This document shows, one piece after another, positions 199-15,926 of a DNA stretch of 64,000 nucleotides (positions within the stretch are counted from its first letter, which is position 1; the number at the start of each line of letters is the position of its first letter). The stretch spans positions 3,162,001 through 3,226,000 of the forward strand of contig NZ_CP099997.1 in NCBI RefSeq assembly GCF_024138145.1, written 5' to 3'. Source of the DNA: Natronosalvus halobius (GTDB taxonomy: Archaea; Halobacteriota; Halobacteria; Halobacteriales; Natrialbaceae). A program made the translations under genes and the position numbers. The notes below the pieces were generated by a model. It was not told the origin of the DNA. It searched no databases and worked only from the letters and a program-made list of their open reading frames with translations.

Positions 199-1038
199 CT
201 ACTCCCACCAGGACTCGCGCTCTGGGAACACGATTTCCGACCACCGAGTCAGCGCAATCGAACACCGACCATTGTACCAGTTCTTCGCCGCCGTCCTGAA
301 CCGCACCCGTTCGCCTTCTCGAACCATCGTCTGTCGACTCTTCGCCCAAATCGTGAACTTTGTTCTTCCAGTCTCGTCTTCGAGTAACCCGACCTGTTGA
401 ATCGCGGGACTCGAGGCATCCCACAGTTCGATCACACGGCCTTCGACACTGACTTCGCCCTTTCTAATCGACTCAAGCCTTCCAATCGGTACGATCGTCC
501 CTGCCTCGTGTTGTATCTCTTCTTTGGTATCCATCACCGCCTCGAACATGTCCGCACCCTCGAGCACTCGACTGGCAATTCGCTTCCCGATGACCGCTCG
601 CGTGTACCCACCTTGGACGTCTTCTGCCAACCGCCGTGCCTGCCGATTGACCTGTCCCAGTTCTCTTCGCTCGAGTTTCTCTCGAGGATCGACTTCGTTG
701 ACCGGCCGCTCACGACGCGCCGCTTCAACTACTGCTCTCGTTCGCTCCGCTCGTCCCTCCTGTCGACCGAACGCTGCCTGTACGCTGATTCGCTCGAGTT
801 CTTCCTCTCTCGCTCGAATGCGCTCTTCCTGGGCCAGGGTCACGCCGTAGATCCGATCTCCGCTGGTGTCGACCATCCCCTCCGGGTGGTTCGAATCCAC
901 CTTCGCCTGTATCTCCATCTCGACCGTTGGCCGGAACTCTGGAGTCTCATCGACGACGTCTTCTCCTCGAACCGCCTCCTGTTCGTACGCCTGTTCATCG
1001 ACCGAAACGATCTTACTGACTGACTTCTTAGTAGACAT
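199..1038 (-). CDS. OB-fold single-stranded DNA-binding protein (RPA-like, haloarchaeal)
   Basis: A 279-residue protein. The last 85 or so residues look like an OB-fold: VEGRVIELWD starts the first strands, DETGRTKFTIW follows, and it ends in the FPERESWWE tail found in haloarchaeal DNA-binding proteins of this type. The first 190 residues are highly charged and probably helical, including the phrase EMEIQAKVDSNHPEGM and an Arg/Glu-rich stretch. Family knowledge suggests binding of single-stranded DNA in replication or repair; such genes occur on haloarchaeal chromosomes and plasmids. The ATG at 1038 is the first in frame and fits the family length. It stands alone, with mobile DNA upstream. 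The family is well recognised; the exact role is inferred. Confidence 0.8.
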   Translation of the reverse strand: MSTKKSVSKIVSVDEQAYEQEAVRGEDVVDETPEFRPTVEMEIQAKVDSNHPEGMVDTSGDRIYGVTLAQEERIRAREEELERISVQAAFGRQEGRAERTRAVVEAARRERPVNEVDPREKLERRELGQVNRQARRLAEDVQGGYTRAVIGKRIASRVLEGADMFEAVMDTKEEIQHEAGTIVPIGRLESIRKGEVSVEGRVIELWDASSPAIQQVGLLEDETGRTKFTIWAKSRQTMVREGERVRFRTAAKNWYNGRCSIALTRWSEIVFPERESWWE

Positions 1039-1905: not shown

Positions 1906-3111
1906 ATGCAGTACAACTACAAGTATCGAATTGACCCGCCAGAACCCCTCCAAGAGGAGCTTCTGTATCACGTCGATACTTGTAGACAACTGTACAACAA
2001 CGTTCTCTACCTACTCAACGACGCAGACGATATCCCATCCCGCTACGAGGTGCAAGGGCAACTCCCCGACCTCAAAACGTGGTGGGACGACCTGAACAAC
2101 GTTCACTCGAAAGTCCTCCAGATGGTCGTCAAGCGCGTCTACGACAACCTCTCCACGCTCAAAGCACAGAAGGAGAACGGGCGTTCCGTGGGGATGCTCA
2201 AGTGGAAACCGCCTCGGGAGTATCGGTCGCTCACCTACAATCAGTCCGGCTTCAAACTCAAGAATACGAGTGGTCGGCCCATCTTGTGGTTGAGCAAGAT
2301 TGGTGAGATTCCGATTCACCTCCACCGAGACATCCCCGAGGACGCGACCATCAAACAGGTCACGGTCAAGCGAGACCCCACGGGTGAGTGGTACGCCACG
2401 TTCGGCATCGACGTGGAGAAAGATCCTCCCGAGAAACCTGAGACGACCGAGGAGGTCGTTGGCATCGACGTAGGGATTCTCAAGTACGCACACGATACCA
2501 AGGGATACGCTATTGAAAGTCCTGACTTGAGTGAAGAACGTGACCGACTCGACTGCGCCCAACGCAACCTCTCACGGAAAGAACACGGGTCTGCGAATTG
2601 GGAGAAACAGCGAGAGGTCGTCGCCCGGCGCCATGCTGACCTGAAACGGAAGCGTCGAGACTTCCTCCACAAGTTGTCGAACTACTACGCCCAAGAGTAT
2701 GACCTCGTGGCGGTCGAGGATTTGGACGCGAAAGGGTTGGTCGAACTCCCCGGCAACTCTCGGGACCGAGTGGGGGCGGCGTGGGGAACGTTCCTACGAA
2801 TGCTCGAATACAAGTGCGAGCGCGAGGGAACGCATTTCGTCGCTGTTGATCCGAAGAATACGACGAAGGAGTGCGCGTCCTGCGGTATCAAGACGGACAA
2901 ACCGTTGTGGGTTCGTGAACACTCGTGTCCGGCGTGTGGGTTTGAATCGGATAGAGACGCGAATGCGGCATGGAACATCCTTTCCCGTGGCCTCGAAGAC
3001 GTAGGAGTGGTTCACTCCGAATTAACGCCTGTGGAGACTGCGCTCCCTGTTGATACTTCTGTGTCTGCAAAGCGTGTCGTGGAAACAGGAAGCCCCACCC
3101 TCACAGAGTGA
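1906..3111 (+). CDS. tnpB: TnpB, RNA-guided endonuclease of IS1341-type element
   Basis: A 401-residue protein of normal family length. The N-terminal helix-turn-helix-like part (MQYNYKYRIDPPEPLQEELL) is followed by the RuvC nuclease. The first catalytic Asp is in VVGIDVGILKYA (about residue 187), the Glu in VAVEDLDAKGLV (about 270) and the last Asp in ESDRDANAAWNIL (about 348). Between the last two motifs is a zinc ribbon with Cys pairs CASC and CPAC. All key residues are present, so it should be active. TnpB proteins cut DNA next to a short target motif using a guide RNA from the element's right end. The gene follows the DUF2080 gene by 3 bases. Confidence 0.93.
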   Translation: MQYNYKYRIDPPEPLQEELLYHVDTCRQLYNNVLYLLNDADDIPSRYEVQGQLPDLKTWWDDLNNVHSKVLQMVVKRVYDNLSTLKAQKENGRSVGMLKWKPPREYRSLTYNQSGFKLKNTSGRPILWLSKIGEIPIHLHRDIPEDATIKQVTVKRDPTGEWYATFGIDVEKDPPEKPETTEEVVGIDVGILKYAHDTKGYAIESPDLSEERDRLDCAQRNLSRKEHGSANWEKQREVVARRHADLKRKRRDFLHKLSNYYAQEYDLVAVEDLDAKGLVELPGNSRDRVGAAWGTFLRMLEYKCEREGTHFVAVDPKNTTKECASCGIKTDKPLWVREHSCPACGFESDRDANAAWNILSRGLEDVGVVHSELTPVETALPVDTSVSAKRVVETGSPTLTE

Positions 3112-3713: not shown

Positions 3714-4157
3714 CTAGGACCACAGTGTCTCTATTCGTTGTTCTATCGCGGTGAGCACTGTCGAGTATACCTCGAGTGGATGGAGTGAAGGGAACTCGAG
3801 ATTGGTGACTTCGGTGGCAGATGGCGGCTCGTGGAAGTGTAACCGGGTGTTGTGCGTATTCGGATGCCAATCCCAGCGACACTCCCAGAGCTCTCCATCC
3901 CCGTGTTCTTCAACGTAGTGGACCGAGAAATCACCAGTCGTGAACCACCGGATGTCGAGTCGGGCCGTGGTTACTGAGTCTGGGTACCGTCCAGCGTCGA
4001 AGAGCACATGAAGCAATCGGGGTTCGTAGGAATCCGGGTCGAACGTCGTTTCGGCGACGAGTGAATCCGACGTAAGGTGTCGTTCCAATAGACGCAATGT
4101 CTGTCGATCCGGTGGCCCTGTCGAGTGAGGCGCTGAATCATCTGGTGGCAGACTCAT
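3714..4157 (-). CDS. TumE-like (DUF6516-type) small protein, putative toxin partner
   Basis: A 147-residue protein. The central part reads as beta strands, with TARLDIRWFTTGDFSVHYVE and then LWECRWDWHPNTHNTRLHFH. This resembles the TumE/DUF6516 family, where a similar His/Trp-rich core follows a short N-terminal region. The start codon at 4157 directly abuts the stop codon of the upstream winged-helix gene (stop 4158-4160), so the two are co-translated. TumE-family proteins are described as toxins paired with a DNA-binding TumA antitoxin. The toxin label here is inference from family and layout. Confidence 0.55.
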   Translation of the reverse strand: MSLPPDDSAPHSTGPPDRQTLRLLERHLTSDSLVAETTFDPDSYEPRLLHVLFDAGRYPDSVTTARLDIRWFTTGDFSVHYVEEHGDGELWECRWDWHPNTHNTRLHFHEPPSATEVTNLEFPSLHPLEVYSTVLTAIEQRIETLWS

Positions 4158-4685
4158 TTAGGCTGGAATTAGATGCCCATCGTTCTGGGAGAGCTGGCGA
4201 GCAAGTTCATATAGCCGAATGTCCCGAATCACACCCTGCCACTCACTGACGGCGGTCATCCGTTCGTGGATGGTTTCGTGATCACCGTGGTCGAACACGT
4301 TGACAGCCGTTGGGTCTGCCGTCCCGAACTGCGATTCGTATTCCGCACGCTGTGTTTCAAGCGCCTCCACCCGATTGATGATCTCTTCGACAGAGAGCTC
4401 GGTTGCGATCCGACTGGCGTCTTGCCATTCGAGATACCCCTCGTTTCGTTCGTATGTCGCTGGGCGGCTGTCTCTATCGGCTCGGGCGATGCCCATCTCC
4501 GCCAAGCGCTCGAGGTGCTTTTTCGCGGCGTTCGGAGAGCAGTCTGCAAGCTCTGCAATTTCGGTGTACGCAATCGGAGACGTAACCCCAAGGACGACGT
4601 CGTAGACACGACCAAACGTGTCCGTTCCTGCTTGCCACCGTCGCTGGGCACCGTTGGACTCGGGGGCTGGATCGAACTCAGTCAT
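4158..4685 (-). CDS. Winged-helix DNA-binding protein, partner of the TumE-like gene
   Basis: A 175-residue protein starting MTEFDPAPESNGAQRRW. Residues about 20-85 form a winged helix: PIAYTEIAELADCSPNAAKKH is the turn and recognition helix (in two parts), and LAEMGIARAD the wing lead. The second half is a long coiled-coil-like helix (RVEALETQRAEYESQFG) and a C-terminal helical part. It resembles haloarchaeal DUF7342-type regulators. The start at 4685 is preferred over 4727 because the extra residues lack family character. As first gene of the pair it probably represses its own promoter and may neutralise the downstream protein; the latter is inference. Confidence 0.65.
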   Translation of the reverse strand: MTEFDPAPESNGAQRRWQAGTDTFGRVYDVVLGVTSPIAYTEIAELADCSPNAAKKHLERLAEMGIARADRDSRPATYERNEGYLEWQDASRIATELSVEEIINRVEALETQRAEYESQFGTADPTAVNVFDHGDHETIHERMTAVSEWQGVIRDIRLYELARQLSQNDGHLIPA

Positions 4686-4948: not shown

Positions 4949-5110
4949 TGAACCGCCTCCGGGTCGAGCCCGAGGCTTCCCGTGGGTTAGTCGGACACTC
5001 CCACGCGACCATCGGCCTGATAACCTCGAGCGGTCGGGTGGGTCACGGTCGGCTGATTCACACAGCCCGATGCCTGCCGTCGCAGTTTCCGAACAGTCGG
5101 AAGCGTGTTG
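4949..5110 (-). ncRNA. Predicted reRNA/omega RNA region at the right end of the second tnpB element
   Basis: This covers the 3' end of the second tnpB and the right end of its element, the place where the guide RNA scaffold lies in this superfamily. The terminal segment on the minus strand, GGGAAGCCTCGGGCTCGACC then CGGAGGCGGTTCAC, holds complementary CCTC and GAGG blocks able to pair. The guide would be read from CTGGCC onward, inside the ArdC-like remnant. The 5' limit is a guess. Confidence 0.4.
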
Positions 5111-6253
5111 AGAGCAGGCACATTTCGATTCAACGACTCCAATCCCTTCTTCGCAATATTCACTGCCGCGTTCCGGTCAGCGTGGTCTTGCCGACCACAC
5201 GCGTTGCACGTGAACCGCTTCTTCCGACGATTCGACCGAGCCGTATGCTCACACTCAGTAAACGAACACATCTGACTGGTGTACGCGGGGTCGATGTCAT
5301 CGCTCGGAATCCCTTCGAACGCCGCTTTGTACGCGACGAACGAACGGAGTTTGTGAAACGGCAACGAGTGCAACCGACGATTCATCCGAGTGCCGTAGTC
5401 AATCGAGTCTCGCATATACTTGAGGTCTTCAAACACAACGAGCGGCGACTCGAATTGCTGAACCCACTCCACAATCCGTCGGGAGACTTGATGGAGTTGG
5501 TCGTGGACGTATCGCTCTTCCTTGCCCTCGAATACCTGGTCAAACGCTGTCTGCCCAACGCTCTGCATCCGCTTTCGCATCGTGAAGTACCGATGCCGCT
5601 CTTGCTTGATTTCAGGATATTCGATAACCACCGAATCAACGATGGCATCTTCACGAAGGGCGGCGAGGGCCACGCAGTCTTCGTTGATGTCTACACCGAC
5701 AACGGTTTGCGCATCGTGTTTGTCTCGAACTGTCGCTTCGAGGTGAGTGACGTTGACGTGGAGTTCGTGGTTGCCGTAGCGGGTCATCGCTTCAGCGGTT
5801 CCCACTCGCCACTCCTCATTTCCGAGTGCGTGTGTGAGGAGCTCGAGGCTGTCTGGTGAGCCACGAAGCGTGCCTTTCACTGGATTGTACGGCTTGGCAC
5901 TGATTCGATAGTGTATCTTGCCGTCTACGAGTGTAAGGTTATAGCCCTCGGTGAAGTTCATCCGCAACGGGTATGGCCCGGTCTTCTCGTGACTGGGTGT
6001 GTTGTAGTCGTCGCGGTCGTAAGACTGCTGAAGTGCGTCGAGGGACTTTGCGACGACGCGTTGCGTGGTGTTTTTCACGAGGTCAGCTTCGTCTTCAAGA
6101 CGGGGGTGAGATGTCGTCCCAGTCTGTCCCGTCTTTCGCTAAGTGGATGGTCTGGTTGAACACCCATCGAGCTTCGTGGTATGCTTCGGAGAGAAGTCGC
6201 TCTTTCTTGGGTTGGAGTTGAAAGACGAGTGTCTTCGTGAGCGGCTTCTCCAT
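4987..6253 (-). pseudogene. tnpB: tnpB with a one-base frameshift
   Basis: The N-terminal 52 residues start at the ATG at 6253 (MEKPLTKTLVFQLQPKKERL) and run into a stop near 6095. The rest of the protein continues in another frame. Removing one C from the run of five C on the coding strand (about 6100-6104) joins ...WDDISP to RLEDEADLVKNTTQR and yields a 421-residue TnpB. RuvC residues are all present: Asp in VVGVDINEDCV, Glu in VVFEDLKYM, Asp in HADRNAAVNIA, plus a zinc ribbon (CSFTEC, CNAC). It may be a recent mutation, a sequencing error in a homopolymer, or programmed slippage. Confidence 0.85.
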
Positions 6254-6672: not shown

Positions 6673-6972
6673 CTACTCGTCGTCGCACCAGGACCCCCAG
6701 ACCTCACGGTACTTCCCGAGTTCCCGATATTCCTTCTTGCGCTCGAAGACATCGATGGCGTAGATCTGCTCGTTGTCTTTGTCCCAGTCGATCAGCACAC
6801 GGAAGTCACCGACCCGGAGCTTGTACCCTGGGTGGTTCTTCAGCCGATCGAGAAAGTGGCCGGGAAAGTCCCTTATGCCTTCCAGTTTGTTGATAACGCG
6901 CTTCGCGTCTTCTGTCTCGAACTGTTCTACTGTCGAAAAGAATGTTTCCGTCAGGATAATATCGTGTGGCAC
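6673..6972 (-). CDS. RelE/ParE-family toxin
   Basis: A 99-residue protein of the RelE fold: an N-terminal helix (FFSTVEQFETEDAKRVINKL), then the strand motif GYKLRVGDFRVLIDWD, then IYAIDVFERKKEYREL. The Arg in LRVGDFRVLI and the Arg-Lys-Lys-Glu-Tyr end match typical RelE catalytic positions. Family members cleave mRNA on the ribosome. It follows the ribbon-helix-helix antitoxin gene by 10 bases, the standard antitoxin-first order. Confidence 0.88.
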   Translation of the reverse strand: MPHDIILTETFFSTVEQFETEDAKRVINKLEGIRDFPGHFLDRLKNHPGYKLRVGDFRVLIDWDKDNEQIYAIDVFERKKEYRELGKYREVWGSWCDDE

Positions 6973-6982
6973 TCGACAATCC

Positions 6983-7261
6983 TCACTCCCCGCTGTCGTT
7001 GTCGATGCCGAGTCGGTTCTTCGCTTCTGAGATTGACATCGTCCGTCCCGCGGCCACGTCCGCGTAGCCTTCGGAGATGCCTTCTTGTGCCCCGGGCGTT
7101 AGGATCGGCTCGGTCGTGTCGCGAAGTACCTCGCGGATGAACTCTGATCGATTAGTGTAGTTTAGCTCCTCCGCTAATTCATCAAGTTCCTTCAGAAGCC
7201 GTCTGGGAACTTTGACGTTGAGTTTCACCATGTCGCCGTTGTCGCCTGTATCCGTGCTCAT
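6983..7261 (-). CDS. Ribbon-helix-helix antitoxin
   Basis: A 92-residue protein starting MSTDTGDNGD at 7261. The ribbon-helix-helix is plain: MVKLNVKVPRRLLKELDELA (strand and helix 1), then ELNYTNRSEFIREVLRD (turn and helix 2). The C-terminal half (ISEGYADVAAGRTMSISEAK) is the acidic toxin-binding tail with the short GYADVAAGR motif seen in RelE partners. A longer in-frame start at 7315 would read through the operator-like palindromes and is less likely. It binds the toxin downstream and represses the pair. Confidence 0.85.
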   Translation of the reverse strand: MSTDTGDNGDMVKLNVKVPRRLLKELDELAEELNYTNRSEFIREVLRDTTEPILTPGAQEGISEGYADVAAGRTMSISEAKNRLGIDNDSGE

Positions 7262-7384: not shown

Positions 7385-8311
7385 TTACTCAATTGACTCC
7401 AGTTGTTTGATAACTATATGTGCACTCGAGCGAATACGCTCGAAACGTTCACTCACCGTTTCAGGTTCGTCGCCTTGCCACGCGGCCAGGTAAAACGCCG
7501 AGCCGCTCGTATCGAGCCCGACGTATCGACCAACGATGTAGGCGACTGCCTCGGCTTCGACCTCGCGACTCGCATGTTCGCTCTTGCTGAGACCATCTGC
7601 GTGTAACAGCACATGGGCGTATTCGTGCACGAGCGTCGTAGCGAGGTCGGCAGTGTTTGTACGCTCACGTACTTTGACGGTGGGCCGCCTGTCGCGATGA
7701 AACTCACAGACGCCTCTGGCTGAGCCGAAGGGCCACGCTTCCGTAGCTACGATCGTCACCTCGATATCGAGCGCCTTCCCGGCTTCATAGAGTAGGGGAA
7801 CGATCTCGCGAGCATCTCCCGTTGTTTCGGTCTCGAGCGACGGAAGCGCCTCGCCTTCTGTCTGAGAAATATCGAAGACGGGAACGGGCTTGAATCCGAC
7901 GAGGCCTTTCGACCACTCCTCTGGAGGCGTTTCGGTGTACTCACACCCAGTACTCGAGTGACGCGATTTCGAGAGCCCACAGGATGGACATTTTCGAGCC
8001 GTGATTGGTGCCCAGATCCAGATCGCTCGTTCTCCTTTTTTGACCTGCCGGTCGAAATTCGTTTGCCAGCTTCGATACCCGGCGACGCGCGTTGCTGATG
8101 GACACTGCTGGGCGATCAAGAGCGTATTCCGGTGAGAGTAGTCGTGAAAGCGACTCTGTACTTCGAGCCAGTGTTTGAACTCCTCACTCGCTCGTGCTTC
8201 GCTGATCAGATCGACGAGATCGCTAAGCCACGATTCGATCGTCTCGTTCATCTCGTCGTGTCGAGTTTCGGTCTCCTCGAACGACGCTACTGTGGGTTGT
8301 TTCGTTGCCAT
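7385..8311 (-). CDS. ArdC-like N-terminal domain fused to ImmA/IrrE-type metallopeptidase
   Basis: A 308-residue protein starting MATKQPTVASFEET. Residues about 15-110 resemble the ArdC N-terminal ssDNA-binding domain (FHDYSHRNTLLIAQQCPSAT, then GYRSWQTNFDRQVKKGERAI). A Cys-containing insert (CPSCGLSKSRHSSTGC, about 107-122) could bind zinc. The C-terminal half has the zinc protease motif HEYAHVLLH with downstream EVEAEAVAYIVG supplying the third ligand. ArdC-type proteins are carried by conjugative DNA and counter host restriction; ImmA-type proteases cleave repressors. The start at 8311 is chosen over 8326 because the extra residues are not conserved-looking. A broken paralog lies at 4802-6461. 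Confidence 0.82.
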   Translation of the reverse strand: MATKQPTVASFEETETRHDEMNETIESWLSDLVDLISEARASEEFKHWLEVQSRFHDYSHRNTLLIAQQCPSATRVAGYRSWQTNFDRQVKKGERAIWIWAPITARKCPSCGLSKSRHSSTGCEYTETPPEEWSKGLVGFKPVPVFDISQTEGEALPSLETETTGDAREIVPLLYEAGKALDIEVTIVATEAWPFGSARGVCEFHRDRRPTVKVRERTNTADLATTLVHEYAHVLLHADGLSKSEHASREVEAEAVAYIVGRYVGLDTSGSAFYLAAWQGDEPETVSERFERIRSSAHIVIKQLESIE

Positions 8312-9501: not shown

Positions 9502-9705
9502 AGTGTATTCCTTTTGTCCGATGCAAGCTCCTGTTAAACAATTTGCTCTTCGACTGTCCTGATGTCCGCCATTTCTAACAGAAAATCGCTTTGTAAGCCA
9601 CTCTAACTGTGACTCCACATCTATCCCTCGTTCGGACTGCTCGCCGTTAGCGAATCAGGAGTAATTGTCCCAACGTTTATTCGGGTTGCCAGCCTGTTAT
9701 GAACA

Positions 9706-9870
9706 ATGGATCTATTCAGGAAGGCCGGGGAGAAGTTCGAAGAAACGAAACAGTCGTTTATGGAAGGGAAGGAAACGCCGTACGTATGTCGCTCCTGTGA
9801 GGAGCCAGTGGACGATGACTACGATCACTGCCCTCACTGTGGCGAAGAGACGGTCGAACCGGTTGAGTGA
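9706..9870 (+). CDS. Small zinc-ribbon protein
   Basis: A 54-residue protein beginning MDLFRKAGEKFEETKQSFME. Its C-terminal half is a zinc ribbon with Cys pairs CRSC and CPHC separated by 11 residues. The N-terminus is an amphipathic helix. A TATA-like GTTTATTC lies 27-30 bases before the ATG, consistent with a leaderless transcript. Such mini zinc proteins are common in haloarchaea; the function is unknown. It is divergent from the MscS gene. Confidence 0.75.
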   Translation: MDLFRKAGEKFEETKQSFMEGKETPYVCRSCEEPVDDDYDHCPHCGEETVEPVE

Positions 9871-10163
9871 CCTCGCTGAGGGTACTAATTGGTTCCTCTG
9901 TAATCGGTCCATTAGTATTGTTGGATAACGGAGTAAGGATTCCCCTCGGGAAAGAGTGAGGCGTTGGATGGGTTGGAACGTAATTTTGAATCCACAAGTC
10001 AACGAGCCACGCTTATCGGTTGTGGTGACAGTCACACGAACTCGAATACGGATTTAATACGACCTACTCCAGTTACGGGGTATTGGAGTTACTCGAACAC
10101 GGCCGCTCTATCGCTATCTTCTGAGTGACGACGCCGCGTTTGTTGGCGCTCCGTTAGCTATCA

Positions 10164-13100
10164 ATGGCGACTGAAAAACACACTACGCCGCCTGCAGAGT
10201 CAATCTCGATGGGAGAAGACGCGGAGACGGGTTTTGAAACCGCCCCACAGGGTGATCTCGAGACATCCGTTGACAGCGATGATCGCCCGCCAGCGACGTC
10301 AAAAGAGAACGAGACGACAGACAGTTCGCTTCTGGAGACGCCATGTTCGCGAACGTACCTCGAGATCCGACCGTCGACGGACTCGCTGGAGTACGGTGCC
10401 GTTGCCCAGGCAATGGAGTTACTCTACAGGCGACTCGATGATCGGACGACAACAGGTGTGTTGAACTCGTTACGTGGCCGTTCGAACACGCCGGTCGTCG
10501 AGATGCTTCTCGTATCAGATGGGCACACGGATACGAGTATTCGGTATCTGATCGGGACAACAGACGACGACTTCCTCGATGATCTCGAAGGGATCTGTCG
10601 GACGGTCGTTCCGAACTCGTACGAACTAACGCGGGTCAAGTGGCATCCACGCGATCTCGAGGCAGTACTGAACGTTCCCAACCGCGAGTTAGACACAGAG
10701 TTCGATGAGCGAGTCTCCACGTCGGATCCGTTCGTCGCCGGTGTCGAGTATCGCGGCCGAGCCCAGTTACGCCGCGATTGGCTCATGCCGTTCAGGTCGT
10801 TCGACGAGTCGGACAATCGATCCTCAGCCCGGTCCAAACAGGAGTCTCGATCCACTGACTCACCTCGCGTTCCGCTTGCAACGCTCGTCGAAACGCTCTG
10901 TGAGAGTGACGTCCCGGTCATCTACCAGGTGGTCTGCCGACCGGCGGGCTCTCTGCAGCCGCTCGCAGACGAGTACCGATTCGAACTCGAGAGTGAGGTC
11001 GTCACGAGCGGTGATCGACTCTCTGCGTTCCTCTTTCCGCGACCAGTGCCAGAAGAGCGCACAGAGTCTCGGGAGATCACACCGGCATATCGAGACCGTC
11101 TCGAGGTGCTCAACCGTCGTGATCACAGACACGCGTTTCAGGCATCCGTCCGAGCGGTTGCACTCTCGAGGGACGACCCGGAGACGGTGACCAGGGTCGC
11201 ACACAATCTTGCAGGGGCGCTGTCCCATCTCAGCGGGGATTTCCACGAGGTTACGGGCCACGTCATCACCGACGACGAGTTTCATACGGGTCTCACCCCA
11301 CCTGGCACGCATCTGTACGAGGCACTCATCGATCGAACTTGTCTCGAGTCGACGTACGACGATCTCGGAAAACGCTTCCCGTGGAAGTCACACGAGAGCC
11401 CTGGAATCGTCGTTTCTGCAACGGAATTGCCTGTGTTCTGTCTGCTGGATGGTGGTGGCCTCACTGCACGCGGTCAGCGAGCCCTCGAGGCACGACATGC
11501 AGAGCGAACTGGACTCCCGCTTCCGGCCCCACAGCAACTCGCCCGATATACGGGGACTGGACAGGCGCTGTGCCGTCCCTTGACCGACGATCGACAGCCG
11601 ACTGCACAGCGATTTGTCCTCCCGCCCGAGCTGCAAGACCGCCACCTGTTCATCGTCGGTGATACTGGCTCTGGGAAATCCGTCCTCACGACTGGGGCCA
11701 TGCTGTCCAACACGACGGCCACAGCTGGCCCGGAGATCCTGTTCGACTACAAAGGCGGAGGCACGGCCGAAGAGTATCTCCAAACGCACTACGCGGCCGC
11801 TGGTGGCCTCGACAGCGATACCGTCCAGTACTTCGATCTCACGAAGATGCTCCCTGCGCTCTCGCTGTTCGACATCGGCCCACTCCTGGACGCGGGTCTC
11901 TCCCGAGAGGAGGCTCGATCACGGATCGCGGGGCACTACGAGGAGATTCTCGCGGGACTCCTGGGTGAAGAGCAGTACTATAGCGCCACCGAGTCGACCA
12001 AAGCCATCCGTAATCACCTACGGGCGTTGTACGACCCCATCCATGGTTCGGATGCGATCTCACACAAGGATCTGTACAGAGCGCTTCAGCGAACGCTGAG
12101 TGACCGATCACCACCGCCAACCTCAGACGAACGACTCACGGAGTACTTCGCAGGATTACTCGAGCGCGATCGCGACGTCTTCAATATGGTCCTCGGTGGT
12201 GCCGTTGCTCGAGTCGAGACGATTGCCACCGACGATCGACTGGCGCCGCTGTTCGATTACGTTCACATCGAGTCTTCAGACGTTGAGCACGGAGACACAG
12301 TCCAGGACTCTGGTCGTGAATCACGTTTTGAAGATGCAACACAGATGGAACTAGAACGTGAATCAGATCAGATTCGAAACCCACACTTCGATTTCATCGA
12401 TGTTATCGACGACGACTGTGTCGTCATTTTCGACTTCGGTGGCATGGAAGAGCGAGTCAAGCGAGCGCTCACACTCGTCTTGCTCTCGAATATGTGGAGT
12501 GCGTTGAAAGCTCGTGCTGAAGCTCCGAGCACGCCAGCGAACCCACCGCAGGTCAACCTGTATCTCGAGGAAGCGAAAGACGTCGCGGCGACCCAGTTGG
12601 TGGATACGCTGCTCTCCCAGGGTCGGTCCTTCGGCCTCTCGATCATGCTGGGCGTCCAGTTTCCGAGCCAACTCGATTCACCCGATCCCTCGAATCAGAC
12701 GTACGAAGAGGCGCTCAACGAGATCGGCACGCTCGTCGTCGGCAACGTCAGCATCGAAGACGACCTCGCGAAGACGCTGGCCACTGATGACGTCCCACCC
12801 CGTAAGGTAGCACGACGCCTCGCTGCGATTCGTCACGGGGAGTGGCTCATCCGCCCCGCTGCCGAATTTGGCGCCCCACCTGCACGACCGTTTCTCGGCC
12901 GTTCGTTATCGCCACCACGCGGCCATCCAGCGAGCGATGAACCACTTGCGGGCGAGCAAAAACGAGCCTTCGACGCGGCTTTCGAGTCCATCACCCTCGA
13001 GACCTGGAGACGCTCGGGGCTCGGTCACGAATCAGAACCAACACAGGCTGCTCATACGGGGTCACCGAACGATTCTGACGGAGACGAACCAGCGCACAGT

Positions 13101-14066
13101 GAATCGTCACTCCGTGTCGACTCACTCCTGCCACACACGAAGCGATTTCCTGACTGTGTCGTCTACGACGAAGCGATCGACGCACTCTGTTGTGCGTCCT
13201 GTGAGAACCGCTACGACCCAACGATCGAGGGGATGAAGCGAGCGATCGAGTGTTGTCACTCCCTCGAGGACGTCGACGCCGACGATATCCCGGTCTGTGA
13301 AATCAATCTCAAACTCACGCCAGCCGAGCGCGAAGCCTCCGAATGGAGTGATCGACAACTACTGTTCTTGCAGGCAGTCTACAACGCCCAGCAGCTGCGA
13401 TACGATCCACTCGAGTACGACATCCTCTCCGACTCAATGCTCAGGCTCCAGGAGTACGTCGGGATCGAAAACGACGACATCACGCCACTGATCGAGGCAG
13501 ACGTTCTTCGTCACGATACCGACCACCCACACCGGCTCTATACCGTGTCATCGGACGGTCGCGACGTCATTGGGGAGAGCTATCGCCTCGGCGTCGACTA
13601 TGGCCACGGCGCTGGCGACCTCGAAGAGTCTAGTCAGCACGTCCTCGGCATCGAGGTGACTCGCCAGTATCTCGAGGCAGTGTATGCCCAGAGCGCTGAC
13701 TCGAGCGTCACGGAGGTGATTCCATATTACGACCTCGACGACCAACACCGACTCGACCTCGCAGGTGTCGACGCCGATGGCGAGATCGTCGTCACCGCCG
13801 AAGTCGAACGGATCAACAACGATTATCACCGGGCCGTTCCCGAGGACTTCGATAAGATGGCTTCGTGCGAGCCTGACGAGGCTATCTGGGTGGTTATGAA
13901 ACAGGCCGATGGTCACAAGGTACTTTCTGCGCTCAATGATCCTTTAGAGGGTGAGCCTCGTGTCGAGAAGACCTACGCCAAGACAACGCCACCCCAGCAG
14001 TTCCGCATCGATACTCCAGGGATGACCGCTGTCTACCCCGCAGACTGGCTTCGAGAGCAGTACTAA
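10164..14066 (+). CDS. HerA/TraG-like ATPase with C-terminal nuclease-like domain
   Basis: A 1300-residue protein. Residues 1-60 are low-complexity and acidic. The ATPase core has the Walker A motif GDTGSGKS at 499-506 and a Walker B LYLEEAK with Glu802-Glu803. A second strand, CVVIFDFGGMEERVKRAL, precedes it. This is the layout of HerA/VirD4/TraG-type DNA pumps found on haloarchaeal plasmids and integrated elements. Near residue 1010-1035 is a Cys cluster (CVVYDE, CCASCENRY, CCH) that may bind zinc. The last 150 residues contain RLDLAGVDADGEIVVTAEVE, with Asp1198 and Glu1213-x-Glu1215, resembling a PD-(D/E)xK nuclease core. No membrane segments are evident. It probably moves DNA during conjugation or defence; the nuclease part is inference. 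Confidence 0.72.
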   Translation: MATEKHTTPPAESISMGEDAETGFETAPQGDLETSVDSDDRPPATSKENETTDSSLLETPCSRTYLEIRPSTDSLEYGAVAQAMELLYRRLDDRTTTGVLNSLRGRSNTPVVEMLLVSDGHTDTSIRYLIGTTDDDFLDDLEGICRTVVPNSYELTRVKWHPRDLEAVLNVPNRELDTEFDERVSTSDPFVAGVEYRGRAQLRRDWLMPFRSFDESDNRSSARSKQESRSTDSPRVPLATLVETLCESDVPVIYQVVCRPAGSLQPLADEYRFELESEVVTSGDRLSAFLFPRPVPEERTESREITPAYRDRLEVLNRRDHRHAFQASVRAVALSRDDPETVTRVAHNLAGALSHLSGDFHEVTGHVITDDEFHTGLTPPGTHLYEALIDRTCLESTYDDLGKRFPWKSHESPGIVVSATELPVFCLLDGGGLTARGQRALEARHAERTGLPLPAPQQLARYTGTGQALCRPLTDDRQPTAQRFVLPPELQDRHLFIVGDTGSGKSVLTTGAMLSNTTATAGPEILFDYKGGGTAEEYLQTHYAAAGGLDSDTVQYFDLTKMLPALSLFDIGPLLDAGLSREEARSRIAGHYEEILAGLLGEEQYYSATESTKAIRNHLRALYDPIHGSDAISHKDLYRALQRTLSDRSPPPTSDERLTEYFAGLLERDRDVFNMVLGGAVARVETIATDDRLAPLFDYVHIESSDVEHGDTVQDSGRESRFEDATQMELERESDQIRNPHFDFIDVIDDDCVVIFDFGGMEERVKRALTLVLLSNMWSALKARAEAPSTPANPPQVNLYLEEAKDVAATQLVDTLLSQGRSFGLSIMLGVQFPSQLDSPDPSNQTYEEALNEIGTLVVGNVSIEDDLAKTLATDDVPPRKVARRLAAIRHGEWLIRPAAEFGAPPARPFLGRSLSPPRGHPASDEPLAGEQKRAFDAAFESITLETWRRSGLGHESEPTQAAHTGSPNDSDGDEPAHSESSLRVDSLLPHTKRFPDCVVYDEAIDALCCASCENRYDPTIEGMKRAIECCHSLEDVDADDIPVCEINLKLTPAEREASEWSDRQLLFLQAVYNAQQLRYDPLEYDILSDSMLRLQEYVGIENDDITPLIEADVLRHDTDHPHRLYTVSSDGRDVIGESYRLGVDYGHGAGDLEESSQHVLGIEVTRQYLEAVYAQSADSSVTEVIPYYDLDDQHRLDLAGVDADGEIVVTAEVERINNDYHRAVPEDFDKMASCEPDEAIWVVMKQADGHKVLSALNDPLEGEPRVEKTYAKTTPPQQFRIDTPGMTAVYPADWLREQY

Positions 14067-14306
14067 TCGGCTCTATTGAAACCCTCCGCCAGTGATATGC
14101 TTAATCAGCCGTGCTGAATACAGTGCGCGAGTGTAACACTCGATGAAAGTCGATTACGAGGGGTGGTAATCGATCAGTACAGGGCGAGAATGTTGCACGA
14201 GATTCAATTCGGGTTTCGAATGTGGTGATCGGTCAGAACAGAGGAGGTACGTATTAGAGACAGGAATGCCCGACTGGCGAGATGCGGGGTGATTGGGACG
14301 TATTCA

Positions 14307-14639
14307 TCAGCGACGTATGCGTCCCAGTATCCGGCTTCGAACGTCATCGGCGGAAACGTACGTTTGGTTGTCGGTTGGGCCAAGCACTTCATCTAGGGAT
14401 TCCCATCCATCCTGCGTTTCGATTTCATAGTCGCCATAGGCCTCGATCAAGTCATCCGTCGTGGTTGGATAGTCATGGGTTTCGAGTGCTTCATCAAGGT
14501 CATCAAGCTGCTCAACAGCGTCGTTGCGCATCGGTTCGGCCTCATCGGCCCGGGTACGTGCTTCCTCAACTTCTCGCTCATGCTGACGTCGCTCTTCGTC
14601 ATCTGCTTGTTTGTCCCGGCCCTGTTTATCATCTGCCAT
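14307..14639 (-). CDS. DUF5789-like acidic haloarchaeal protein
   Basis: A 110-residue, strongly charged protein starting MADDKQGRDKQADDEERRQ. A coiled-coil-like helix fills the first half. The second half (LETHDYPTTTDDLIEAYGDY, then DGWESLDEVLG and SADDVRSRILGRI) is the conserved part of a haloarchaeal family of unknown function that I associate with DUF5789. An earlier ATG at 14684 would add 15 residues; the shorter start is chosen because family members begin near the charged stretch. No operon partner. Confidence 0.6.
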   Translation of the reverse strand: MADDKQGRDKQADDEERRQHEREVEEARTRADEAEPMRNDAVEQLDDLDEALETHDYPTTTDDLIEAYGDYEIETQDGWESLDEVLGPTDNQTYVSADDVRSRILGRIRR

Positions 14640-15926
14640 CGCGTGCATTAAGAGATCGATTCGGATAACGGTGTGGTCGCTCATCGGTGCGACCGCCTCC
14701 CAGATCCTCTGCATTTAACAGGCAACTTTCGCAATCTACTCAGGATTGTAGCAAAGCGTACTATTCGCGTTTCAAATAGCTCATAATCGGGTTCTACGTC
14801 CGGAAGAGTAGGTTTGGTCTCTGCTTCGAGAGTCGATTATGAAGATAGTCTAGGAAAGATTGCACGATGAGGTTCTCCCTCGAGTGTATGGCTTGTGACC
14901 CAATAGTCGAGTAAGTGGCCTCTCGAGGCGATTAGGGGACTTTCGCGTATGTTTTGATGATTGCTGGTGCTGATGAACGAGCAAGGACCGTTTCGTGATC
15001 GGTACTCGCTGCGTAGATGCAGAGCTCGAGGCATCAGACGTGCATAACCGGTTCGAGAAGCGCTCTATGGTGTTTTTACGTTCTCGGGAAGTGTCTCAAC
15101 CTGTTCGGCAATTTCAGTACTGTCTAGCACCCCAAAACCGATAGCAGAGGACCGATTATGAAATTTTGAATCGTGTCCTGGACGGTCACACGCTCGACTC
15201 GAGTGGGTGAGTGAGATCCCTGTAGAGAAGGCTCTAAACCAGCGAATCCAATTTCGTGGAATGGATCTGAGACGCTCTTCATAGCGATTCTCTTCCTGGT
15301 GACCGCCAACCCGAAAAACGCAAGACAGAAACCGATTATGAACTTTTGAGAGCGTGATTTCTCCCTCTTTTCGGGTCACTCACTTTGCCCTGCTCACGCC
15401 CACCTCTGTCCTGGACGCTATCTCGAGCGATAACCTCCTACTCCAGGATCTCTTCCTAGGTTCGTCCATAGATCACCTCTACACACATCTTCCGGACAGT
15501 TGTCGTGGTTATGATCAGGAAATGTTCTGGCCAATACCGTGATCCGCGAGGTTCAGAGTTTCTTTTTGACCTCCATGTAGAGTTTTGGGTGGAGATTCCT
15601 CCTCTCGTCAACAAAGTCATACAAGATGTCTGTAGCCGCTGCAGACGCCAACACTCCATCATTGTCCATTTGAGCAAGAGCATGACTACCCACAAGCGTT
15701 CGATACCATGACTTCGGGTGATCTCGAGTAGCTCTCGCCGTTTGCCAGCAGCAGCCCTCCTCATCCTCAGTGACTAAGATTCGCCTCGGCATCGACGGCC
15801 ACCAGAACTAAGCACAAATGAAAGAAGAAGCGAATAATCAATGGACGTACAGAGGGAGTACGAGACGATGTGTGACTGTAGCAAACTGCGACCTAACGTT
15901 CTGTATTGCCGGTGTGGGGGACGTCG
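14640..15926. other. Long gene-poor stretch with repeated CGATTATGA motifs
   Basis: No complete gene is convincing in these 1.3 kb. The motif CGATTATGA occurs at about 14833, 15152 and 15331, with the reverse form CATAATCGG at about 14779. The copies at 15152 and 15331 share ACCGATTATGAA and a following TTTTGA. A leftward frame of 79 codons at 15553-15792 (MPRRILVTEDEEGCCW...) has fairly protein-like composition but matches nothing I recognise. The stretch may be decayed mobile DNA. Confidence 0.4.

Follow-up and report, generated by a model that had tools for sequence, protein, structure and literature searches.

The window analysed here, a stretch of 64,000 nucleotides from an archaeal chromosome (Natronosalvus halobius, C1:3162001-3226000; whole genome 3.85 Mb), contains a gene at positions 10164-14066 whose product joins an ATPase of the TrwB/VirB4/HerA class to a predicted C-terminal nuclease domain. 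This conserved fusion of a pump with a nuclease-like domain is a central component of haloarchaeal elements that resemble conjugative ones. We consider it probable, at roughly 0.6, that the protein serves a haloarchaeal conjugative element as its type IV coupling protein (T4CP), that is, as the second ATPase beside VirB4, and that the winged-helix/PD-(D/E)xK module of the protein nicks or otherwise processes the transferred DNA. The observations behind this proposal are the class of the ATPase, the predicted nuclease fold, the invariant active-site-like residues and the linkage of the family to VirB4, VirB6 and primase genes; origin-specific nicking, single-strand transfer and assembly with VirB4 are what we infer beyond them. 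From N- to C-terminus the protein comprises an alpha/beta region, the ATPase, a Cys cluster, a winged helix and a restriction-endonuclease (REase)-like core, with the following positions in the window:

10164-14066, plus strand: coupling-type ATPase with a C-terminal nuclease-like domain, 1300 residues (open reading frame (ORF), Pfam, homologs)
10341-11558, plus strand: N-terminal alpha/beta region, about residues 60-465 (AlphaFold2 model of residues 58-975)
11559-12953, plus strand: ATPase core, about residues 466-930 (VIA structural comparison)
11658-11681, plus strand: Walker A motif GDTGSGKS, residues 499-506, with K505 (sequence)
13188-13298, plus strand: Cys cluster, residues 1009-1045 (conservation)
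13317-13583, plus strand: predicted winged-helix (MarR-like) domain, residues 1052-1140 (AlphaFold2; MarR-family VIA rows)
13584-14063, plus strand: predicted REase-like (PD-(D/E)xK-type) domain, residues 1141-1300 (AlphaFold2, structural neighbours, conservation)
13638-13640, plus strand: invariant His1159, in the first helix (conservation)
13755-13757, plus strand: predicted catalytic Asp1198, in strand 2 (conservation, AlphaFold2)
13800-13808, plus strand: predicted catalytic Glu1213-x-Glu1215, at the end of strand 3 (conservation, AlphaFold2)
13854-13856, plus strand: Lys1231, in the helix after strand 3, a possible migrated Lys (conservation)

An earlier note, made from the DNA letters alone, had proposed a HerA/TraG-type ATPase with Walker A and B motifs in this frame, and the ORF, the motifs and two Pfam families bear it out: TrwB_AAD_bind (PF10412) scores 26.2 bits against a cut-off of 20.5, and DUF87/HerA 25.9 bits against 23.2. 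Walker B reads VVIFDF (D757) and is followed by NLYLEEA (E802/E803). The AlphaFold2 model of residues 58-975 has a predicted local distance difference test score (pLDDT) of 87.0 and a predicted template modelling score (pTM) of 0.76. Its VIA Z-scores are 27.9 with DndH-C, 26.4 with VirB4, 25.0 with TrwB and 24.7 with HerA, and its top Foldseek rows are VirB4/TrwK (E 9e-12). These structural scores are nearly tied, and the coupling-protein assignment therefore also leans on Pfam and on gene context. VirB4/TrwK align with the whole ATPase chain, but with a root mean square deviation of about 15 Å; in this model the N-terminal region possibly resembles the N-terminal domain of VirB4, though weakly at such a deviation. 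Shorter ATPase-nuclease fusions of 830-846 residues were observed at L153:4580-8499 and L155:6427-10511, with a gene of 476-489 residues before them, which at L153 has a membrane-like stretch at its start; shorter fusion and preceding gene are perhaps a split form.

The tail (residues 985-1300) was modelled with AlphaFold2 from 54 family sequences drawn from the collected loci, with a pLDDT of 93.1 and a pTM of 0.90. The model predicts a winged helix followed by a PD-(D/E)xK-like nuclease domain with an alpha-beta-beta-beta-alpha-beta core (helix 1157-1175; strands 1184-1190, 1196-1202 and 1208-1215; helix 1221-1233; strand 1239-1244; helix 1247-1258), whose acidic residues lie on strands 2 and 3. 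The nuclease-like strand pattern that the earlier note had read from the letters is thus recovered, with D1198 on strand 2 and E1213/E1215 at the end of strand 3; and where that note had weighed a winged helix against a nuclease, the tail is predicted to contain both. The 50 VIA rows for the tail are mostly MarR-type regulators or proteins of the REase fold; the scores, all below a Z of 8, where values are common, include YaeQ (7.4, the best), Can2 (7.2), VC1899 (7.1), PaqCI (7.1), EcoT38I (6.9) and the nickase N.BspD6I (6.0). Foldseek against the PDB and viral libraries gave no match with E below 0.001, the top PDB rows being Rio2 kinase-type chains (E 0.008-0.01) and then Can2/Card1 (E 0.015-0.03). 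Pfam and NCBIfam returned nothing specific for the tail, the PDDEXK_4 profile (PF14281) matching one of the 54 members weakly at E 0.23, and a PDB sequence search with the tail found nothing credible (a single row, E 1.2). With no Foldseek E below 0.001 and Z-scores under 8, the fold assignment therefore rests on topology, on the preponderance of REase-fold and MarR proteins among the VIA rows and on residue conservation.

Conservation was assessed over 95 focal ORFs or fragments, six of which do not cover the site and some of which are the same gene entered twice (for example the window gene, also present as L008, and the pair L003 and L036). H1159, Y1188, D1198, E1213, E1215 and D1228 are identical in all 89 covering sequences, and the acidic residues among them had been numbered correctly in the earlier note. 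K1231 is kept in 86 of the 89; most loci were collected with two search patterns, one of which spans D1228-K1231 and biases the set towards those residues, while the other residues lie in no pattern. An alignment of 16 diverse rows, which reaches down to 26% identity to the window protein, shows no change at the same residues. The ratio of nonsynonymous to synonymous substitution rates in the tail (Nei-Gojobori) is about 0.05 against the homolog in genome G175, 0.08 against those at L012 and L013, and 0.12 against that at L020. The distance matrices of the ATPase and nuclease parts are correlated: r is 0.87 for 76 proteins together and, taken clade by clade, 0.48 in A and 0.79 in B, the plasmid clade.

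The same alignments bear on whether the nuclease fold might be catalytically dead and bind only DNA or a partner. PD-(D/E)xK-fold proteins without catalysis exist, and in the window protein the classical Lys of the ExK motif is replaced by Glu (ExE). In a wider set of 25 rows that includes ten stand-alone relatives, E1215 is found in 21 and K1231 in 16; among the stand-alone relatives themselves E1215 is present in six and lost in four, and K1231 is present in three. However, H1159, D1198 and E1213 are identical in all 25 rows, and the TraX-type MOBC protein of pTEF1 likewise combines an ExE with a Lys further along the chain. A dead fold accordingly strikes us as distinctly improbable, and we infer nuclease activity for the C-terminal domain.

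Between ATPase and winged helix lies the Cys cluster that the earlier note had also seen (C1009, C1010, C1013, C1030, C1031 and C1045). At each of C1010, C1013 and C1030, 63 of the 95 family sequences have a Cys, and the cluster is absent from the three clade-B rows of a separate alignment; it is therefore clade-specific and outside the nuclease core. Our best guess from sequence profiles is a TRASH-type zinc finger (PF24273), a weak match found in five of 54 members with a best E of 4e-4.

The gene context of the family was examined at 59 loci of clade A and 27 of clade B, whose neighbouring genes were called by a simple in-house caller and clustered. A DNA primase gene and a primase-associated gene are present at all 27 clade-B loci, mostly straight after the fusion gene, and 25 of these loci have VirB4. 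In the further clades represented by L098, L099, L101 and L102 the fusion gene likewise precedes primase genes, with VirB4 directly upstream except in L102. In clade A, 31 loci have an OB-fold protein as neighbour, 21 have an NrS-1-type primase and 10 have ArdC-like genes, and VirB4 falls inside the fetched flanks in 7 of the 59. Distances were taken from the nuclease match for 101 fused genes with an open frame of at least 973 residues: VirB4 is encoded on the same strand no more than 6 kb away for at least 37, and within 60 kb for at least 33 more, of which 24 are divergent with VirB4 upstream and one stands at 2.2 kb on the opposite strand. By simple arithmetic, a random point on the window's own 3.51-Mb chromosome would lie within 60 kb of a single VirB4 gene about 3.5% of the time. 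Beside the fusion gene in 12 clade-A loci (cluster c22; for example L012:8295-9677) stand ATPases that by eye look like the archaeal AAA-plus-DUF234 nuclease type.

On the protein's own chromosome a cluster of the order c1-c6-c12-VirB6-c5-VirB4-primase runs on the minus strand from C1:3149097 down to 3140510, outside the window and 23-32 kb upstream of position 3172164, where the window gene starts. Its VirB6-type protein matches PF19590 at 8e-204. Its VirB4 exceeds the cut-offs of PF19044 and, barely, PF03135, and is 84.9% identical over 674 residues to the VirB4 of plasmid locus L090; no coupling ATPase follows it, and the primase, which matches the NrS-1 domain, occupies the place that the coupling protein has in clade-B elements. 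Among the genes called in 3137000-3177000, the window gene alone falls in the coupling-ATPase cluster (BLASTP). Three genomes of the same genus (G175, G045 and G046) show the same divergent layout, with 21-38 kb from VirB4 to the nuclease match. The 294-kb contig C2 bears a second operon, which encodes a further fusion protein of 1397 residues. The element of the window gene is probably a conjugative element integrated in the chromosome. At another place on the chromosome, a 26-codon remnant with an internal stop (G000:C1:3360595-3360672, L011) matches residues 1275-1300 of the window protein.

Closer to the gene, the window holds three further features of note:

199-1038, minus strand: OB-fold single-stranded-DNA-binding-type protein, cluster c2 (PDB sequence match to 2kbn at 6e-11, archaeal single-stranded-DNA-binding proteins at about 0.01)
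6673-7261, minus strand: ParE-like and ribbon-helix-helix (RHH) antitoxin genes (Pfam)
7385-8311, minus strand: ArdC-N-type protein with an IrrE-like stretch, cluster c29 (Pfam)

Cluster c2 recurs in nine clade-B loci as well as in the 31 of clade A, and its member in the window has no Pfam match at 0.01; c29 is found in 10 clade-A loci. The RHH antitoxin scores 35.3 bits (cut-off 20.5), the ArdC-N domain 23.5 bits (cut-off 22.6) and the ParE-like gene 18.1 bits, below its cut-off of 23, so that the toxin-antitoxin and anti-restriction-like neighbours are much as the earlier note had described them. The window also contains a gene for TnpB, of the RNA-guided nuclease family, at 1906-3111, a second gene clustering with TnpB proteins at 4987-6078, and a gene pair at 3714-4685 (c9/c13; a DUF7342 helix-turn-helix protein and a second small protein) that is common beside many of these mobile loci.

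Such neighbours might speak for a role in defence or in conflict between elements, in which an ATPase-nuclease of the kind of HerA-DUF4297, HerA-SIR2, DndH or MADS would translocate on invading DNA and cut it. DndH-C is indeed the top structural row, at Z 27.9, and PADLOC, scanned with the window protein, its tail and two neighbours, matched mad8 to the window protein (E 2.1e-11) together with weak HerA rows. However, the ATPase rows hardly separate DndH from VirB4, TrwB and HerA, and the tail matches no PADLOC model. Toxin-antitoxin and ArdC genes are commonly carried by mobile elements, where they are usual cargo, and the linkage of the family points instead to VirB4, VirB6 and primase. We therefore regard defence as less likely than a role in DNA transfer, and as a long shot in its own right. 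Of the earlier suggestion of a defence or DNA-processing machine, the DNA-processing half gains from the VirB4/VirB6/primase linkage, whereas defence has no support beyond the HerA/mad8 profile and DndH-C structural matches. The neighbourhood fared similarly: in place of the relaxase or defence partners envisaged by the note, VirB4, VirB6 and primase partners came to light, neither PF13814 nor PF03432 was found in the genome, and no defence partners emerged among the few proteins given to PADLOC beyond those profile matches, no search aimed at other MADS genes having been made.

Of 194 genomes sampled from the window's class, 97 contain the nuclease domain, and in a sample of the phylum 20 of 196 genomes match, every one in the window's own order. 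Among the matches listed, most are frames of 1100-1500 residues fused to the ATPase, some are of 800-900 residues, and some are stand-alone, of 272-327 residues. A tblastn search matched 144 plasmid records, the genera shown being haloarchaeal, and MOB-suite predicts all 144 to be 'non-mobilizable', that is, with no relaxase typed. Viral contigs gave 54 pattern matches, with no relatives among these. Stand-alone proteins of the winged-helix/nuclease type at L144-L152 and L156 have 258-322 residues (one has 414), and some adjoin integrases, a UvrD helicase or primase-like genes. Integrases occur near the stand-alone relatives at all three tested loci, of which L144 and L146 are near-identical, and NrS-1/primase-like genes at five of ten. 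Integrase and primase-like neighbours are as expected for the initiator of mobilizable elements, and the stand-alone relatives possibly represent a family of small haloarchaeal mobile elements.

What the module might do is best judged beside the MOBC relaxases (TraX of pAD1, MobC of CloDF13; PF13814, Replic_Relax), which, in the accessible text of PMC12857230, have an N-terminal winged helix and an REase-type catalytic domain. The window tail has the same succession of domains, and by eye its His, Asp, ExE and Lys come in the same order; in the pTEF1 TraX-type MOBC protein they are H102, D152, E170, E172 and K188, with an ExE-to-Lys spacing of 18, as in the window protein. MOBC-type genes stand directly before coupling-ATPase genes in all three bacillar plasmids examined; the nuclease-like domain of the window protein differs in being fused to the C-terminus of the ATPase. 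As a control, PF13814 scored 28.8 bits on pTEF1; it was silent on the CloDF13 record, and pTEF1 with eight further MOBC-type sequences was therefore used as the yardstick in place of CloDF13. The module plausibly works like MOBC and would stand in for a MOBC-type relaxase, although it is no proven member of that family; that it is MOBC by descent is not established.

The winged helix and the stand-alone relatives also help to judge a different arrangement, in which the coupling ATPase would carry a non-specific end-processing nuclease in the manner of HerA-NurA, trimming or resecting a double-strand end or cutting concatemers in export, with no starting nick. HerA is among the structural matches of the ATPase (Z 24.7), strand generation by HerA-NurA is proposed for archaeal transfer in the accessible part of PMC9905601, and that of PMC5365140 describes a NurA-like nuclease that supports DNA donation by TdtA in Thermus. 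Against this, the single AlphaFold2 model of the tail places a winged helix, a usual DNA-reading domain, before the nuclease, which counts because an end-processing nuclease would presumably need no DNA reader; moreover, stand-alone winged-helix/nuclease-type relatives exist without the ATPase. We consider end-processing unlikely.

Several results weigh against the proposed nicking coupling protein, or against its likeness to MOBC. For the 54 members, 19 families reached an E of 1 or better, and PF13814 is none of them. Comparisons with MOBC by hhalign are weak, with probabilities of 0.5%, 16.9% (winged helix only) and 22.5% (both domains, mostly winged helix); in the last, none of 100 shuffles was as good for both domains and 7 of 100 were for the nuclease part alone. 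In an earlier hhalign set, 1 of 150 shuffles was as good for the nuclease part in local mode and 95 of 150 in global mode, where the alignment spans three columns and is no better than shuffles. The non-mobilizable typing of the plasmids is weak evidence, as MOB-suite types CloDF13 in the same way. Hydropathy detected no membrane anchor or transmembrane stretch (best 19-residue value 1.48, at residue 415), a test that is not decisive since some coupling proteins have no anchor. Among the matches listed, 9 of the 101 fused genes have VirB4 farther off than 60 kb and 22 have none on the contig, although the plasmid copy of the window's own genome was scored 'none' in this way while VirB4 adjoins it. 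At the element itself, 3132000-3140600 and 3176000-3186000 share no direct repeat of at least 15 bp, no tRNA was found in the window or three upstream stretches, and no systematic search for an integrase was made. No origin-like repeats occur in 9502-10163, and three two-copy families in 14067-15926 give no clear origin. The canonical relaxase-like PF03432 exceeds its cut-off in 6 of 97 haloarchaeal genomes (for example at loci L111-L113); these matches, mostly in frames of 175-253 residues, are of a different, rarer relaxase type. Finally, the accessible text of PMC8563766 reports 41 MOBC-profile and 73 PF13814 matches, with hosts unassigned, in the plasmidome of a halobacteria-rich lake.

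Among known systems, the T4CPs (VirD4/TraG/TrwB) share with the window protein the ATPase class, the linkage to VirB4 and VirB6 and a TrwB_AAD_bind match above cut-off; unlike them, it has a C-terminal winged helix and nuclease-like domain, a long N-terminal region and no transmembrane stretch that could be found. HerA-NurA, HerA-DUF4297 and TdtA likewise pair a HerA-class pump with a nuclease, but there the nuclease is a separate protein, whereas the window protein is a single chain linked to VirB4/VirB6. Can2/Card1, which are CRISPR effectors activated by cyclic oligoadenylates, have the same pair of domains and fold (winged helix and REase; VIA Z 5.9-7.2) and, unlike the window protein, no ATPase. 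Haloarchaeal VirB4/VirD4 regions are known at the level of annotation: the TraG/TraD/VirD4 and VirB4 genes of integrated mobile elements (PMC9259645), including a 53-kb region of Haloferax volcanii (PMC2841640), belong to the same kind of element, and their VirD4-type genes may be members of the window protein's family; the accessible text of these two papers mentions no nuclease domain or relaxase. As far as their accessible parts go, a 2025 review records no relaxase on known archaeal conjugative plasmids or elements (PMC12857230), nor is one reported for archaeal conjugative elements in PMC9905601 and PMC6563490. Our literature search, which left most subscription journals and preprints outside its coverage, found no paper on a fusion of a coupling protein with a nuclease or relaxase.

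If the protein is indeed a nicking coupling protein, the winged helix and PD-(D/E)xK-like domain would bind the transfer origin of the element, the nuclease-like domain would nick it and pass the strand on to the ATPase within the same polypeptide, the ATPase would pump that strand through the VirB4/VirB6 channel, and the element-encoded primase would make the second strand. The 1.9 kb after the fusion gene (14067-15926), with few convincing ORFs and a two-copy direct repeat of 41 nucleotides (73%), are a place to look for such an origin. We suggest more tentatively, as something somewhat short of an even bet, that the relaxase of haloarchaeal conjugation is by default built into the coupling pump, in plasmids and integrated elements alike, and that stand-alone copies, with integrase and primase, serve mobilizable elements. 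Should the proposal hold, the fusion may represent the missing enzyme for initiating archaeal DNA transfer. With a conserved nuclease domain in the coupling pump in half of its sampled genomes, the class offers a concrete and mutable candidate for a relaxase.

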